Assembly: GCA_030491005.1 (NCBI GenBank)
Contig: JAKZMJ010000005.1
Span: 124,001-188,000, forward strand
Direction of reading: 5' to 3'
Length of the DNA stretch: 64,000 nt
Source of the DNA: Sulfurospirillum sp.
GTDB lineage: Bacteria > Campylobacterota > Campylobacteria > Campylobacterales > Arcobacteraceae
Under the pieces are notes generated by a model. It was not told the origin of the DNA. It did not search any database and saw only the letters and a program-made list of their open reading frames with translations. The position numbers and the translations under genes were made by a program. Positions 10,077 to 51,657 of this stretch are shown one piece after another; positions within the stretch are counted from its first letter, which is position 1; the number at the start of each line of letters is the position of its first letter.

Positions 10077-11137
10077 TTCTTTGGAATGATAACTGTATAA
10101 TCCAAATCTAAAACGATATTTTTAAGATATTTTCCATTTTCATCAAATCTTGATTTTACATCATTTGATTTCATATTCTTTAAAGCCACAGTTCTAAGGC
10201 GCAATAGTCCGATATCTTCTCTGTTTAAATCTATTTTTTCTAAAACTTCACTATAAGCATATATGGTATCTCCTGCAAAAGTAGGATTTGCATGAGCTCC
10301 TGCATTTATTGCATAAATCCATTGGGCATTTTGTAAACCATTAAATGAAATGCTTCTAGCAATGGATATAACATGCCCACCATACATAAGACGCTTACCA
10401 ATAGGAGTGCTTTTCATCATAAAATCATCAAAATGCACTTTTGCATTATTTTGGTAAAGCTTAGTTGCTAAGGTATGGTCACTATCATCAATAGTAATAC
10501 CTTCTGTATGATTTAATCTTTCATTTTCTTCATAATCTTCCCAAAAATATGTACCGCCTGTTGCATTTGTATCAATATTTTGTAAAGTTGGAATGTTGAT
10601 ATTTTTACTTATAGTTGTAGTTTTTGCAAAAGTAGGAACTTCATTTATTCCAGAGTTTTTACTTTTGTCTTTTTTATGTACCATAACCCAACGCTTAAGG
10701 TTTAATATTTCTTCATTATTTTGATTGTAACCAATAGAATGCACATAAACTACTCCACTTTTACCACTTGAGTTTTCCTTTAAACCAATAACTTGGGTTT
10801 CAAGTCTTACTGTGTCACCTACAAAAACAGGATTTAAAAAAGATACTTCAGCATATCCTAAATTTGCAATTGCATTTAAAGAGATATCTTGTACGGATTT
10901 AGCAAAAGTTAAATGAAACATCAACATATCATCAAGTGGTCTTTTCTCATATCCAAATTCTTGTGCTAAAACATCACTTGAATGAAGTGCAAATCTACTT
11001 CCTGTTAGTGCAATATAAAAAGAAACATCTCCTTGTGTTATTGTTCTTGGAAGTGGATGGATTATTTTTTGTCCGATTTTAAAATCTTCAAAAAAATTAC
11101 CCTTATTTATCTTAGTACTTATTTTATTTATTGACAA
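10070..11137 (-). CDS. MaoC-type dehydratase with two hot-dog domains, like mesaconyl-CoA (2-methylfumaryl-CoA) hydratase
   Basis: The protein has about 355 residues. The N-terminal half carries FFEDFKIGQKIIHPLPRT, LNAIANLGYAEVSF and VGDTVRLETQVIGLKENSSG. This wording, especially SLNAIANLGYAE and GLKENS, matches the mesaconyl-CoA hydratase family of the ethylmalonyl-CoA and methylaspartate pathways. The C-terminal half is a second hot-dog domain. I choose TTG at 11137 as start because a perfect AAGGAG lies 6 nt upstream, directly at the stop of the synthetase gene. An earlier in-frame ATG at 11185 would overlap that gene by 38 nt. Hydration of mesaconyl-CoA or itaconyl-CoA is predicted. Confidence 0.82.
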   Translation of the reverse strand: MSINKISTKINKGNFFEDFKIGQKIIHPLPRTITQGDVSFYIALTGSRFALHSSDVLAQEFGYEKRPLDDMLMFHLTFAKSVQDISLNAIANLGYAEVSFLNPVFVGDTVRLETQVIGLKENSSGKSGVVYVHSIGYNQNNEEILNLKRWVMVHKKDKSKNSGINEVPTFAKTTTISKNINIPTLQNIDTNATGGTYFWEDYEENERLNHTEGITIDDSDHTLATKLYQNNAKVHFDDFMMKSTPIGKRLMYGGHVISIARSISFNGLQNAQWIYAINAGAHANPTFAGDTIYAYSEVLEKIDLNREDIGLLRLRTVALKNMKSNDVKSRFDENGKYLKNIVLDLDYTVIIPKKK

Positions 11138-11147
11138 TTTAATCTCC

Positions 11148-13670
11148 TTAAAATGAACTTTGACCGATTTCTTTAAATCGTTCAAAAAGTGTAATAGTTC
11201 TATTCGCCCAATTTATTCGTGATTTATCAACTAATTCATCGCCAAATTGTATAACTTCTTTACCATTTTTTAAAGCTTCATTATATGCACTAATCATATC
11301 TTGTGCTTTTTTTACTTCTGCTTTTTTTGGTGTAAAAATATCATTTACATATTCTAATTGAATAGGGTGTAATACTGCTTTTCCATCACAACCTAAATAA
11401 AAGGCATCTTTAGTACTAGCTTCACAAGAAAATTCATCTGCTACGTCAAAATGAGGTCCATCAATAACGATTTTTTCATAAGCTCTTGCAGCTAAACAAA
11501 TTTGACTCATATAATGAAACATAGCTTTATAACTATGTTTAATACTTATTTGTAATTTTTGTGCTAAATTATTTGTACCAATTATTATACATTTTAACTT
11601 TTCACTTGAAGCACATATTTCTTGAATATTTAATACTCCTAAAGGTGTATCAATCATAATCATTAATTCTAATTTTGGATTAATATTCACTATAATTTCT
11701 TGGGCTTTTAATACATCTTCAGCACTTTCAATACTTGCAAATAAAATACCATCAATATCAAGATTTTTTACTAATTCTAAATCTTTTTTTATATTTGATG
11801 AGTTTAATTTATTCACCTTGATAACTTTTTCAGAATCACCAAATTTTGAATCTTTTGTAAACTCATTTTTTATTAGTTTTCTAGCTAATTCTTTTTGTTC
11901 TTCTAAAATAGCTTCAAAATCAAAAATAACACAATCAGCTAAGACCGTTCTTGATCTTTGAATATTTTTTTCATTGTAAGCTGGAACAAATAACATAGAT
12001 CTTCTTGGTCTATAAATTTCCATTTGAAGTTTTGGTATAAAATCATTATTTAATTTTAGAATATTTTTAATAAGTTCTTTTCTTAAAACTTTTCCATTTT
12101 TTGTTTTAGGATAATCATCTACTATATAAATTTGTTTAGGTGCTTTATATTTAGCAAGGTTTTTTTGTCCAAACTCTAAGATATTTAGCTCATCTTCTTT
12201 GCTTAGTTTTTTATCACTTAAAATAGCAATTGCCACAATCGTTTTATCAGCAGCAACATCAAGACCAATAGCCACACAATCAGCTACGTCTTTATGTGTT
12301 TTAATAACTCGCTCAATTTCATGTGGACTTACTCTAAAACCAAAGGTATTTATGATGTCATCTTTTCGTCCTAAGAACCAAATATATCCATCTTTATCTT
12401 TTTTCGCATAATCACCTGTAAAAAAATAGCCATTTCTTTTTACTTGTGCAGTTTCATCTTCTAAGTTCCAATACTCTAAAAATAAACCTGGATTATCAAC
12501 TCCTATACAAATCATACCTTCTTCTTCAACTCCTGCTTCTTCTAATGTTGCAGGATTTAGAAGTTTTACATTATGACCTGGCTGAACAAAACCAGCAGAC
12601 CCTGGTCTTATTGGTCTATACTTTGAATGAGAAATATAATAAGAGAATTCACTCATACCAATTGCTTCAAAAATATCTTGCTTAAATCTTTCTTTCCAAA
12701 GTCCAACCATCTCAGAAGATAAATGCTCACCTGCACTCATACAATATCTCAAACTTGGACAATCTTCAATAGTAAAATTAGTTTTTTGTAATATTTGTCT
12801 ATAAATAGTAGGTACTCCTATAAATATAGTACATTTATGTTTTTTTATTAACTCAACCCAAGACTTAGCATCGTTTGCACCTTCATAAGCTATTACCGTA
12901 TGTCCTTTGTATAAAGGGTCCATAAGTGCTGAACCTAAAACATAAGTCCAATTAAACTTTCCAGAGTGCATGATTCTGTCATTTTCTTTAAAATCAAACC
13001 AAAATTCACTAGCAGGTGCTCGTCCTACAAGTGATCTATGTGAATGTAAAACACCTTTTGGAAAACCAGTTGTTCCTGAAGTATAAACTAAATAAGCAGG
13101 TTCTCCTGATTTTGAATTATAAAAATCATTTTCATTGCTTGCTTTATTTATAACTTCTTCAAAAGAGTATAAAGTAGCACCATGTGGTTTTTTAAGCTCT
13201 TTTATATTCGTAGTTCCTGAGACAATAATATGATGTAAATTATCTAAGTTTTCTAAATAAGGTAATAAAATATCATAAATAGAGGCAGAAATAACAATGG
13301 CTTTTGCTTGTGAATCACTTGCTAAATACTTAACTTCTGTTCCACTTAGAAGTGTAGAAGTTGGAACTGCTACAATTCCTGATTTTATACTTCCAAAAAA
13401 TGATATAGGATAAGCAAGTGAGTTTTTCAAACAAATTAACACTCTATCTCTTGGCGATAAATTAATACTTGTTAGAAAATTTGAAAATCTAGTTGATTGG
13501 TCATTTAAATCTTTATATGTAATCTCACTAGTTCCAAGTTTACTATCTTCAATTATCATAGCAATTGAGTTTTCTTTTTTTGTACCAATGTGTGCATAAG
13601 TACAAGCAGTTCCAATATTTAAAAATTCTGGAACTTCTATTTCTAATTGTGGGTATTGTTCTAAATTCAT
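11148..13670 (-). CDS. Fusion of an AMP-forming acyl-CoA synthetase with a CitE-like CoA-ester lyase
   Basis: The protein has 840 residues. Residues 1-545 are an ANL-superfamily synthetase: YTSGTTGFPKG near 196-206, the adenylate-binding GMSEFSYY, YFFTGDYAKKD near 415-425, and the C-terminal catalytic Lys527 in PKTKNGKVLRKEL. Residues 552-840 are a citrate-lyase-beta/citramalyl-CoA-lyase-like domain beginning YRPRRSMLFVPAYNEKNI, with the acidic pair in FDFEA near 584-586 and the GCDGKAVLHPIQLEYVN substrate loop. Both halves look complete. The arrangement suggests one polypeptide that activates an acid to a CoA ester and cleaves (or condenses) a downstream hydroxyacyl-CoA, with the hydratase encoded next door acting in between. 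Confidence 0.88.
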   Translation of the reverse strand: MNLEQYPQLEIEVPEFLNIGTACTYAHIGTKKENSIAMIIEDSKLGTSEITYKDLNDQSTRFSNFLTSINLSPRDRVLICLKNSLAYPISFFGSIKSGIVAVPTSTLLSGTEVKYLASDSQAKAIVISASIYDILLPYLENLDNLHHIIVSGTTNIKELKKPHGATLYSFEEVINKASNENDFYNSKSGEPAYLVYTSGTTGFPKGVLHSHRSLVGRAPASEFWFDFKENDRIMHSGKFNWTYVLGSALMDPLYKGHTVIAYEGANDAKSWVELIKKHKCTIFIGVPTIYRQILQKTNFTIEDCPSLRYCMSAGEHLSSEMVGLWKERFKQDIFEAIGMSEFSYYISHSKYRPIRPGSAGFVQPGHNVKLLNPATLEEAGVEEEGMICIGVDNPGLFLEYWNLEDETAQVKRNGYFFTGDYAKKDKDGYIWFLGRKDDIINTFGFRVSPHEIERVIKTHKDVADCVAIGLDVAADKTIVAIAILSDKKLSKEDELNILEFGQKNLAKYKAPKQIYIVDDYPKTKNGKVLRKELIKNILKLNNDFIPKLQMEIYRPRRSMLFVPAYNEKNIQRSRTVLADCVIFDFEAILEEQKELARKLIKNEFTKDSKFGDSEKVIKVNKLNSSNIKKDLELVKNLDIDGILFASIESAEDVLKAQEIIVNINPKLELMIMIDTPLGVLNIQEICASSEKLKCIIIGTNNLAQKLQISIKHSYKAMFHYMSQICLAARAYEKIVIDGPHFDVADEFSCEASTKDAFYLGCDGKAVLHPIQLEYVNDIFTPKKAEVKKAQDMISAYNEALKNGKEVIQFGDELVDKSRINWANRTITLFERFKEIGQSSF

Positions 13671-50321: not shown

Positions 50322-50627
50322 TTATTCTTTTGTTTTTTTTGAAGGTAAATATTTAAATAAAAAGTATATCACTGCTAACATAATTATTATAGTGATAATT
50401 GGTACGAATGCAATATCAACATCAGAGGTACTACCTCTTTGATAGTTTTTTGGTAAAAATAAGAACATACAAGAAAGAAACATAAAAGAAGAAGTCATTA
50501 CAGCTATTAAATGAGCAAAAACTTTATGAAACTTTGTTATATAAAAATCTTTTATTATTTTCCATGTAATAAAACCAGCAGTAAATGTAATCACAAGAAC
50601 AATGATTTTATCATAATTAGCTTCCAA
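50322..50627 (-). CDS. Small three-helix membrane protein, unknown function
   Basis: The 101-residue protein has three hydrophobic helices near residues 7-26, 37-60 and 72-92, the last followed by a Lys-rich tail. I do not recognise a family. It is convergent with the aldo/keto reductase gene (4 nt gap) and co-directional with the thioredoxin-like gene upstream (80 nt). Confidence 0.5.
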   Translation of the reverse strand: MEANYDKIIVLVITFTAGFITWKIIKDFYITKFHKVFAHLIAVMTSSFMFLSCMFLFLPKNYQRGSTSDVDIAFVPIITIIIMLAVIYFLFKYLPSKKTKE

Positions 50628-50707: not shown

Positions 50708-51073
50708 TTAGTTTTTAAAAAAAGTTTTTACATTTTCTTTTATTGTTTTAACACTTACTAGTCCAGCTTCTTTTGCTATAACTTTTCCATTTTTAATATA
50801 AAGTAAAATAGGCATGCTATAAACTTCAAACTTTTTAGTTAGAATTTTATTCTCGATACTAACTTTATAGATTTTTACATTATCTTCTGGGTTATTTGCT
50901 TGATATTTTGTTAAGCTTTTACCTAAAGCATCACAAGCAGGTCAATAAGAAGCATAAAATTCTACTATTACATTTTGATTTTTGATTTTTGTATCAAAGT
51001 TGCTAGAAGTTAATTCTTCAAAAGCAAATACTTGAATAATACAAAAAAACAATATTATTAATATTTTTTTCAT
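50708..51073 (-). CDS. Periplasmic thioredoxin-like protein, probable selenoprotein (UxxC)
   Basis: Reading through one in-frame TGA (50942-50944) gives a 121-residue protein. It has a signal peptide (MKKILIILFFCIIQVFA, cleavage after Ala17), then VIVEFYASY-TGA-PACDALG and a cis-Pro-like SMPILLYIKNGK. Aligned with thioredoxins (FxAxWCxxC), the TGA at codon 44 replaces the first, nucleophilic Cys of CxxC, and the resolving Cys is present. A bacterial SECIS-like hairpin lies immediately downstream. The frame shows normal thioredoxin sequence on both sides and AAAGGAG 6 nt before the ATG, so a decaying pseudogene is less likely. Insertion of Sec needs selABCD, which are not in the window. Confidence 0.8.
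50908..50936 (-). promoter_or_regulatory. SECIS-like stem-loop downstream of the in-frame TGA
   Basis: On the minus strand GCTTT-AGGTA-AAAGC forms a perfect 5-bp stem with an AGGTA loop. It is extended by TTGT/ACAA after a symmetric 3x3 internal loop. The loop begins 17 nt after the TGA. From memory, the E. coli fdhF element has AGGUCU in the loop at the same distance. This is what SelB would bind to direct selenocysteine insertion. Confidence 0.75.
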
Positions 51074-51153
51074 TCTCTCTCCTTTGTAATTTACAAGCAT
51101 AATAACACAATTTCGTGTATTGTATGTGTAATCATATTGTGGGGTTATTGCAT

Positions 51154-51657
51154 TTAAATATCAAAATCACCTTTGATTTGTTTTACCCATTTTTCTAATC
51201 TATCTTGTGTTAAATCATCTTGATTTTCTTCATCAATAACTAAGCCTATAAACTTACCATCCATTACAGAATTCGATTCTTCATAATCATAACCATCAGT
51301 TGATGTATGCCCTATGATTTTTGCATCTTTTACTTTTTTATATAATAAAGATATTGCTTCAGCAAATGTATCACCATAACCTTCTTGATCTCCTAAACCA
51401 AGTAAAGCAATAGTTTTATTAGAAAAGTCTATCTCATCTAATATTACTTCAAAATCTTCCCAATCTGATTGTAAATCACCTTCGCCCCAAGTTGAACTAG
51501 CAAAAATAAGTTTATCAAAAGAAGATATTTGTTTAGCAGAACTAGTACTTACATCAATCAATTCTACATATTCTTCACCTATAATATTTACTAATCTTTC
51601 GCAAACATCTTTTGTCATACCACCATCGCTACCATATACTAATCCTATATTTTTCAT
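51154..51657 (-). CDS. fldA: Flavodoxin
   Basis: The 167-residue long-chain flavodoxin carries FMN and one electron at low potential. It has an N-terminal phosphate loop (LVYGSDGGMTKDV, altered from the usual GSxTGNT), the isoalloxazine-binding SSTWGEGDLQSDWEDF and ALLGLGDQEGYGDTF. In Campylobacterota flavodoxin is typically an electron acceptor of pyruvate:acceptor oxidoreductase. The thioredoxin-like selenoprotein gene lies 80 nt downstream on the same strand; the link may be coincidental. Confidence 0.92.
   Translation of the reverse strand: MKNIGLVYGSDGGMTKDVCERLVNIIGEEYVELIDVSTSSAKQISSFDKLIFASSTWGEGDLQSDWEDFEVILDEIDFSNKTIALLGLGDQEGYGDTFAEAISLLYKKVKDAKIIGHTSTDGYDYEESNSVMDGKFIGLVIDEENQDDLTQDRLEKWVKQIKGDFDI

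Follow-up and report, generated by a model that had tools for sequence, protein, structure and literature searches.

Does an in-frame TGA at the active-site codon of a thioredoxin-like gene mark the end of a broken reading frame, or is it read as selenocysteine (Sec)? The question is raised by a minus-strand locus in the window, the whole stretch of 64,000 nucleotides that was analysed, where a first-pass annotation had proposed a Sec-containing periplasmic thioredoxin hidden by a single TGA. Direct reading of the minus strand recovered this interruption as described. The translation reads MKKILIILFFCIIQVFAFEE...VEFYASY(TGA)PACDALGK..., with the interrupting codon given in brackets. Based on the comparative evidence presented below, we propose that the gene encodes an exported thioredoxin with Sec inserted at the UGA, and we put the probability of this reading at about 93%. 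The features of the locus are compiled in Table 1.

Table 1. Features of the putative selenothioredoxin locus, in coordinates of the window.
Feature	Position	Strand	Description and basis
Putative selenothioredoxin gene	50708..51073	(-)	121 residues if the UGA is read as Sec (U44); start ATG at 51073, stop TAA at 50710-50708, by direct reading
Predicted Sec codon 44, in-frame TGA, first position of UxxC	50942..50944	(-)	sole in-frame TGA (50944-50942), read directly, and relatives
Resolving Cys codon 47	50933..50935	(-)	invariant in the alignment of relatives
Probable signal peptide, residues 1-17 (MKKILIILFFCIIQVFA)	51023..51073	(-)	cleavage expected before FEE; by sequence
Candidate SECIS hairpin	50908..50936	(-)	apical 5-bp stem 50929-50925 / 50919-50915, loop AGGTA 50924-50920; outer helix TTGT 50936-50933 / ACAA 50911-50908
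Ribosome-binding site AAAGGAG	51079..51085	(-)	by sequence; also in the nearest relative
Imperfect inverted repeat ATACACGAAATTGTGTTAT (ATACAC..GTGTTAT), upstream of the gene	51102..51120	(-)	repeat shared with the nearest relative
Upstream neighbour, long-chain flavodoxin, FldA type	51154..51657	(-)	TIGR01752, 194.9 bits
Downstream neighbour, 101-aa membrane-like protein, no family assigned	50322..50627	(-)	TTG start; kept in the nearest relative

With Cys placed at the Sec position, the protein matched PF00085 with 60.7 bits (Pfam cut-off 23.5); with the TGA left in, the match was 52.7 bits. The score against TIGR01068, the NCBIfam equivalog for canonical thioredoxin, was 61.1 bits and fell below the cut-off of 96.8. 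Therefore, we refer to the gene as thioredoxin-like and do not file it as TrxA. No NCBIfam model scored above its cut-off for the full Sec form, and in current annotations, genes of this kind are therefore probably truncated, labelled as pseudogenes or missing. A single-sequence AlphaFold2 prediction of the Sec-to-Cys protein was discarded (mean pLDDT 41). By inspection, the N-terminus has a basic start, a hydrophobic core and an FA-FE junction, which are kept in nearly all Sec-type relatives. The inverted repeat upstream of the gene is possibly a regulator site (operator) or the terminator of the flavodoxin gene.

A search of 104 genomes of the family Arcobacteraceae yielded 22 Sec-type genes, distributed over 20 genomes and six genera. 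Every one of them contains a single TGA, located in each case at this codon and followed by xxC, in an otherwise intact frame, so that the position on the first CxxC Cys with the resolving Cys retained, first noted for the gene in the window, recurs in 22 of 22 Sec-type relatives. An order-level profile search (399 genomes) added a gene from another family with the TGA and the same hairpin (G316) as well as a fragmentary one from that same other family (G390), and a scan of the collection for relatives gave a single locus, identical to that of G041. In the alignment of orthologues proposed by the first-pass annotation, codon 44 is either TGA or Cys and nothing else, with 45 distinct homologous sequences carrying Cys at the Sec position. 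Hits with TAG or TAA apparently inside the gene (G077-G079, G011) were considered as cases of alternative Sec codons and rejected, as the active site of these hits contains Cys and their stops are located where the alignment ends.

The Sec genes group together in the protein tree and swap with Cys genes only a few times (4 changes vs. 18.8 for shuffled labels, 0/500 shuffles; the tree is built on few columns and many of its forks are unresolved). The Cys gene L029 of G092 has TGT instead of TGA next to an intact hairpin, and thereby resembles the remnant SECIS structures that were described in Cys genes with a Sec ancestor (PMC1794560). Cys paralogues of the same family, CPPC-type exported thioredoxins such as L057 and L049, share length, signal peptide and fold with the Sec form at ~40-48% identity, but have TGT or TGC in place of the TGA and lack the conserved hairpin. 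Sec-type and Cys-type exported thioredoxin genes were also observed in tandem in one genome (G091, L078:1445-2228, minus strand). Downstream of the TGA, dN/dS was 0.36 for the gene compared to its nearest relative and 0.08-0.18 in six other pairs, and values upstream of the TGA were similar. Because dN/dS indicates purifying selection in this part, we conclude that the frame 3' of the TGA is translated.

The hairpin that had been pointed out behind the TGA, GCTTT-AGGTA-AAAGC extended by TTGT/ACAA, is present, and its loop begins exactly 17 nt past the TGA. We analyzed it by synonymous-codon resampling (2000 trials encoding the same peptides) and by covariation. Of the 20 distinct Sec-type sequences, 19 retain a complete 5-bp stem, compared to a mean of 4.5 and a maximum of 10 in the 2000 synonymous recodings, and the mean minimum free energy of the Sec-type sequences was -7.0 kcal/mol vs. 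-3.2 +/- 0.4 kcal/mol under recoding. Only 7 of the 45 Cys sequences have a complete stem, and the folding energy of the Cys sequences is near their own expectation. Changes on both sides of the stem were found at three pairs, and the covariation score was higher than in any of the 500 shuffles or any slid control; neither the number of doubly changed pairs nor further pair types exceeded the shuffles in this test. The second loop base is an invariant G among the Sec-type sequences, and the geometry between codon and hairpin is kept among the Sec-type genes. The claim that random decay would not account for this arrangement is borne out by the shared codon position of the TGA in all 22 Sec-type relatives and by compensatory changes that keep the stem. 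The hairpin also fits the SECIS element described for Epsilonproteobacteria (PMC4607533), a 5/6-bp hairpin in which one G of the loop is invariant. Judged by these comparisons of nucleotide sequences, the hairpin very probably represents a bacterial SECIS element under structural selection.

The source genome (G000; a 2.69-Mb draft of 33 contigs, 97% complete with 3.4% contamination) encodes all of selA, selB, selC and selD, the genes whose presence the first-pass annotation had suggested to check. SelB was detected with 272 bits, over the cut-off, and selA (554 bits) adjoins the gene for tRNA-Sec(UCA). SelD (350 bits) contains a single in-frame TGA in the first part of its gene (SAG(TGA)AAKMGPCDL), at the known Sec position of SelD. 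With SelA, SelB, tRNA-Sec and a TGA-containing SelD present, the genome therefore possesses a complete Sec pathway and another selenoprotein of textbook type. Among the family genomes, selB was found in 19 of the 20 with a Sec-type gene vs. 51 of the 84 others (P = 0.003, which is indicative only since the genomes are related); the Sec-type genome in which selB was not seen (G096) is an 86% complete draft. As a separate observation, a FecCD-type permease frame near selA contains one in-frame TGA (contig C2, L009:2611-3069, minus strand; LLGAFILL(TGA)ADSIAR), for which mutation, sequencing error and suppression are alternative explanations.

If the UGA were a genuine stop, the gene would be a decaying copy or would give rise to a truncated peptide only. 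In its favour, translation table 11 gives an open frame no further than codon 43, and the full Sec form exceeds the cut-off of no NCBIfam model. However, the recurrence of the TGA in 22 of 22 otherwise intact Sec-type genes, the purifying selection behind it and the conserved distance to the hairpin render this reading extremely improbable. The UGA could also be read as another residue without involvement of SelB, for example as Gly by an extra tRNA(UCA) or as Trp by a near-cognate tRNA. In favour of this, two additional tRNA(UCA) genes of the source genome have a glycine-type acceptor end, and genes located next to them contain many TGAs that fit Gly. Yet the pattern of these tRNAs occurs in only 2 of the 104 family genomes (by a strict pattern that misses G067), whereas the thioredoxin TGA is kept in 20, and tRNA-Gly(UCA) is therefore a weak rival reader. 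Moreover, relatives show only Cys at this position, the active site would be lost with Gly or Trp, and the constraint on the hairpin is specific to the TGA genes. We consider decoding as another residue very unlikely, while the glycine-type tRNAs could compete at the thioredoxin UGA to a minor extent. Genome-wide reassignment of UGA was dismissed: 6 of the 63 ORFs of at least 100 aa in the window end in TGA, and no other plausible gene in the window has an internal TGA. In sum, insertion of Sec at this codon is supported, and both the observation and the interpretation of the first-pass annotation hold: selB and selC are present, and close relatives are free of decay, with dN/dS after the TGA well below 1.

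While checking selC, we came across the extra UCA-anticodon tRNAs of the source genome (L139:143-233 on contig C23 and L138:12-103 on C7). They differ from selC by U73 and by an acceptor end of G1-C72 and C2-G71, as in tRNA-Gly; the variable arm is long. Each is followed by a K-x-x-Y-H-I gene with no family assigned (L139:271-960 on C23). On C23, where the tRNA cassette abuts a tRNA-Arg gene, a lipoprotein gene, an unnamed gene and a FecR-domain gene contain 10, 9 and 10 in-frame TGAs, respectively (L141:2647-5374). A further copy on C2 (L162:4802-6952 and 10614-11999) has lost the tRNA and is adjoined by insertion elements. When two copies in the source genome were compared, aligned TGAs coincided in 8/10 and 9/9 cases, with one pairing with GGA, whereas in the third gene only 7/12 coincided and the partners were mixed. 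The FecR match was 50.6 bits with TGA read as Gly, the one residue tried for this gene, and the He_PIG match of a copy in G049 was 46.9 bits with Gly vs. 39.6-43.1 bits for six other residues and X.

In G049, the same tRNA and gene are located beside a lipoprotein frame with ~33 TGA and 3 TAG codons (C159, L137:957-3608), and TGA seems to serve as a stop in a Phd-like gene of this small contig. They also occur in G067 (L161:5350-9985), a single-contig genome, and contamination is therefore not a general explanation of the cassette. Here, a surface gene on the minus strand (8795 to ~5500), situated between tRNAs with the anticodons UCA and CUA, contains 21 in-frame TGA and 2 TAG codons before TAATAA; both TGA and TAG may be sense codons in this gene. 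Copies of the UCA tRNA and the K-x-x-Y-H-I gene were found in four other families of the order (L163, L164, L154 and L155 in G310, G150, G213 and G104), with TGA-bearing frames near some of them. Matches to the extra tRNA pattern on two viral contigs were discarded as chance hits with no tRNA there, at least one of them inside coding sequence. No relatives of the tRNA-linked gene were detected in the viral collection, in plasmids or in phages, the latter searched with the G049 version.

Genome-wide use of UGA for Gly is listed for Absconditabacteria and Gracilibacteria only, and contaminating contigs can mimic such cases (PMC8629427). The copies described here are possibly a portable UGA = Gly cassette inside a standard-code genome. 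As glycine-type UCA tRNAs stand beside surface genes full of Gly-fitting TGAs, we lean slightly toward three meanings of UGA in one bacterium, namely stop ordinarily, Sec in the presence of a SECIS element and SelB (thioredoxin, SelD), and Gly in surface-protein cassettes with their own tRNA(UCA). If true, the selenothioredoxin would be a natural test of how SelB and the hairpin prevail over both the release factor and another tRNA that reads UGA. Real tRNA-Gly(UCA) cassettes would make the organism a rare example of a single codon being read in three ways depending on its context, a side finding that is possibly more important than the thioredoxin itself.

For the thioredoxin, we propose the following mechanism of Sec insertion. 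SelB and Sec-tRNA-Sec would be recruited by the hairpin that closely follows the UGA, Sec would be incorporated and translation would run on to the TAA, a step for which the comparative evidence is strong. The product would be an exported thioredoxin-fold oxidoreductase with the active site U-P-A-C, from which the signal peptide, judging from the N-terminus, would be removed after export. A periplasmic location is suggested by the conserved signal-peptide-like N-terminus and by a dsbD neighbour in two genomes. In the periplasm, the protein would serve as a selenol/thiol reductant, with Sec attacking disulfides or other oxidised groups and Cys47 probably resolving the selenylsulfide according to established thioredoxin chemistry. 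The dsbD gene is located directly downstream on the same strand in G086 and G087; the source genome has DsbD as well, but not adjacent. Because dsbD directly follows the gene in these two genomes, a periplasmic reductant fed by DsbD appears to be the likeliest role, and we give re-reduction by DsbD somewhat better than even odds.

A selenothioredoxin that is not fed by DsbD could instead take part in SelO-linked redox control or in the detoxification of peroxide or of selenium/metals, or it could function as an oxidase or isomerase, which we regard as possible if less probable. SelO is a protein AMPylase with redox links, and its gene (PF02696, 444 bits) lies divergent from the selenothioredoxin gene in 10 Sec-type loci (e.g., L074:2-1417, minus strand, and nine alike). 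It is thus a commoner neighbour than dsbD, which is adjacent in two genomes but not in the source genome; in the window, the neighbour is a flavodoxin. However, SelO is not known to occur in a periplasmic form in bacteria, whereas the selenothioredoxin has a probable signal peptide. SelO was not found in the source genome, which does have DsbD; therefore the link to SelO is not general, and a SelO partnership as the main role was set aside.

UxxC thioredoxin selenoproteins (PF00085) are, as the first-pass annotation had stated, an established family (PMC9312934, PMC13188914) and were counted already in 2006 (PMC1794560). Its remark that a periplasmic member would be unusual is partly right: in the open-access literature, we found no paper on a periplasmic one and no report of an exported, Arcobacter-type selenothioredoxin, while the location itself is suggested by the N-terminus and the dsbD neighbours. 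One thioredoxin selenoprotein was reported in Epsilonproteobacteria, the phylum of our gene, by Cravedi et al. 2015 (PMC4607533), and may belong to the same subfamily. Our gene shares with the known family the Pfam domain, Sec as first residue of CxxC and a hairpin after the UGA. It appears to differ by a conserved signal peptide and by forming an Arcobacter-type subfamily beside Cys paralogues. TlpA/ResA/DsbE-type thioredoxins and the C-terminal domain of DsbD are likewise exported CxxC folds tied to DsbD or CcdA, but match our protein, a plain thioredoxin domain with a predicted Sec, only weakly at the profile level. UxxC thioredoxin selenoproteins being a known class, we therefore propose that the gene represents a new, secreted, unmodelled subfamily. 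It would add a conserved exported branch to the selenothioredoxins, and the Cys paralogues in the same cells, together with the switches between Sec and Cys in close relatives, offer a good setting for studying what Sec buys a periplasmic reductant.
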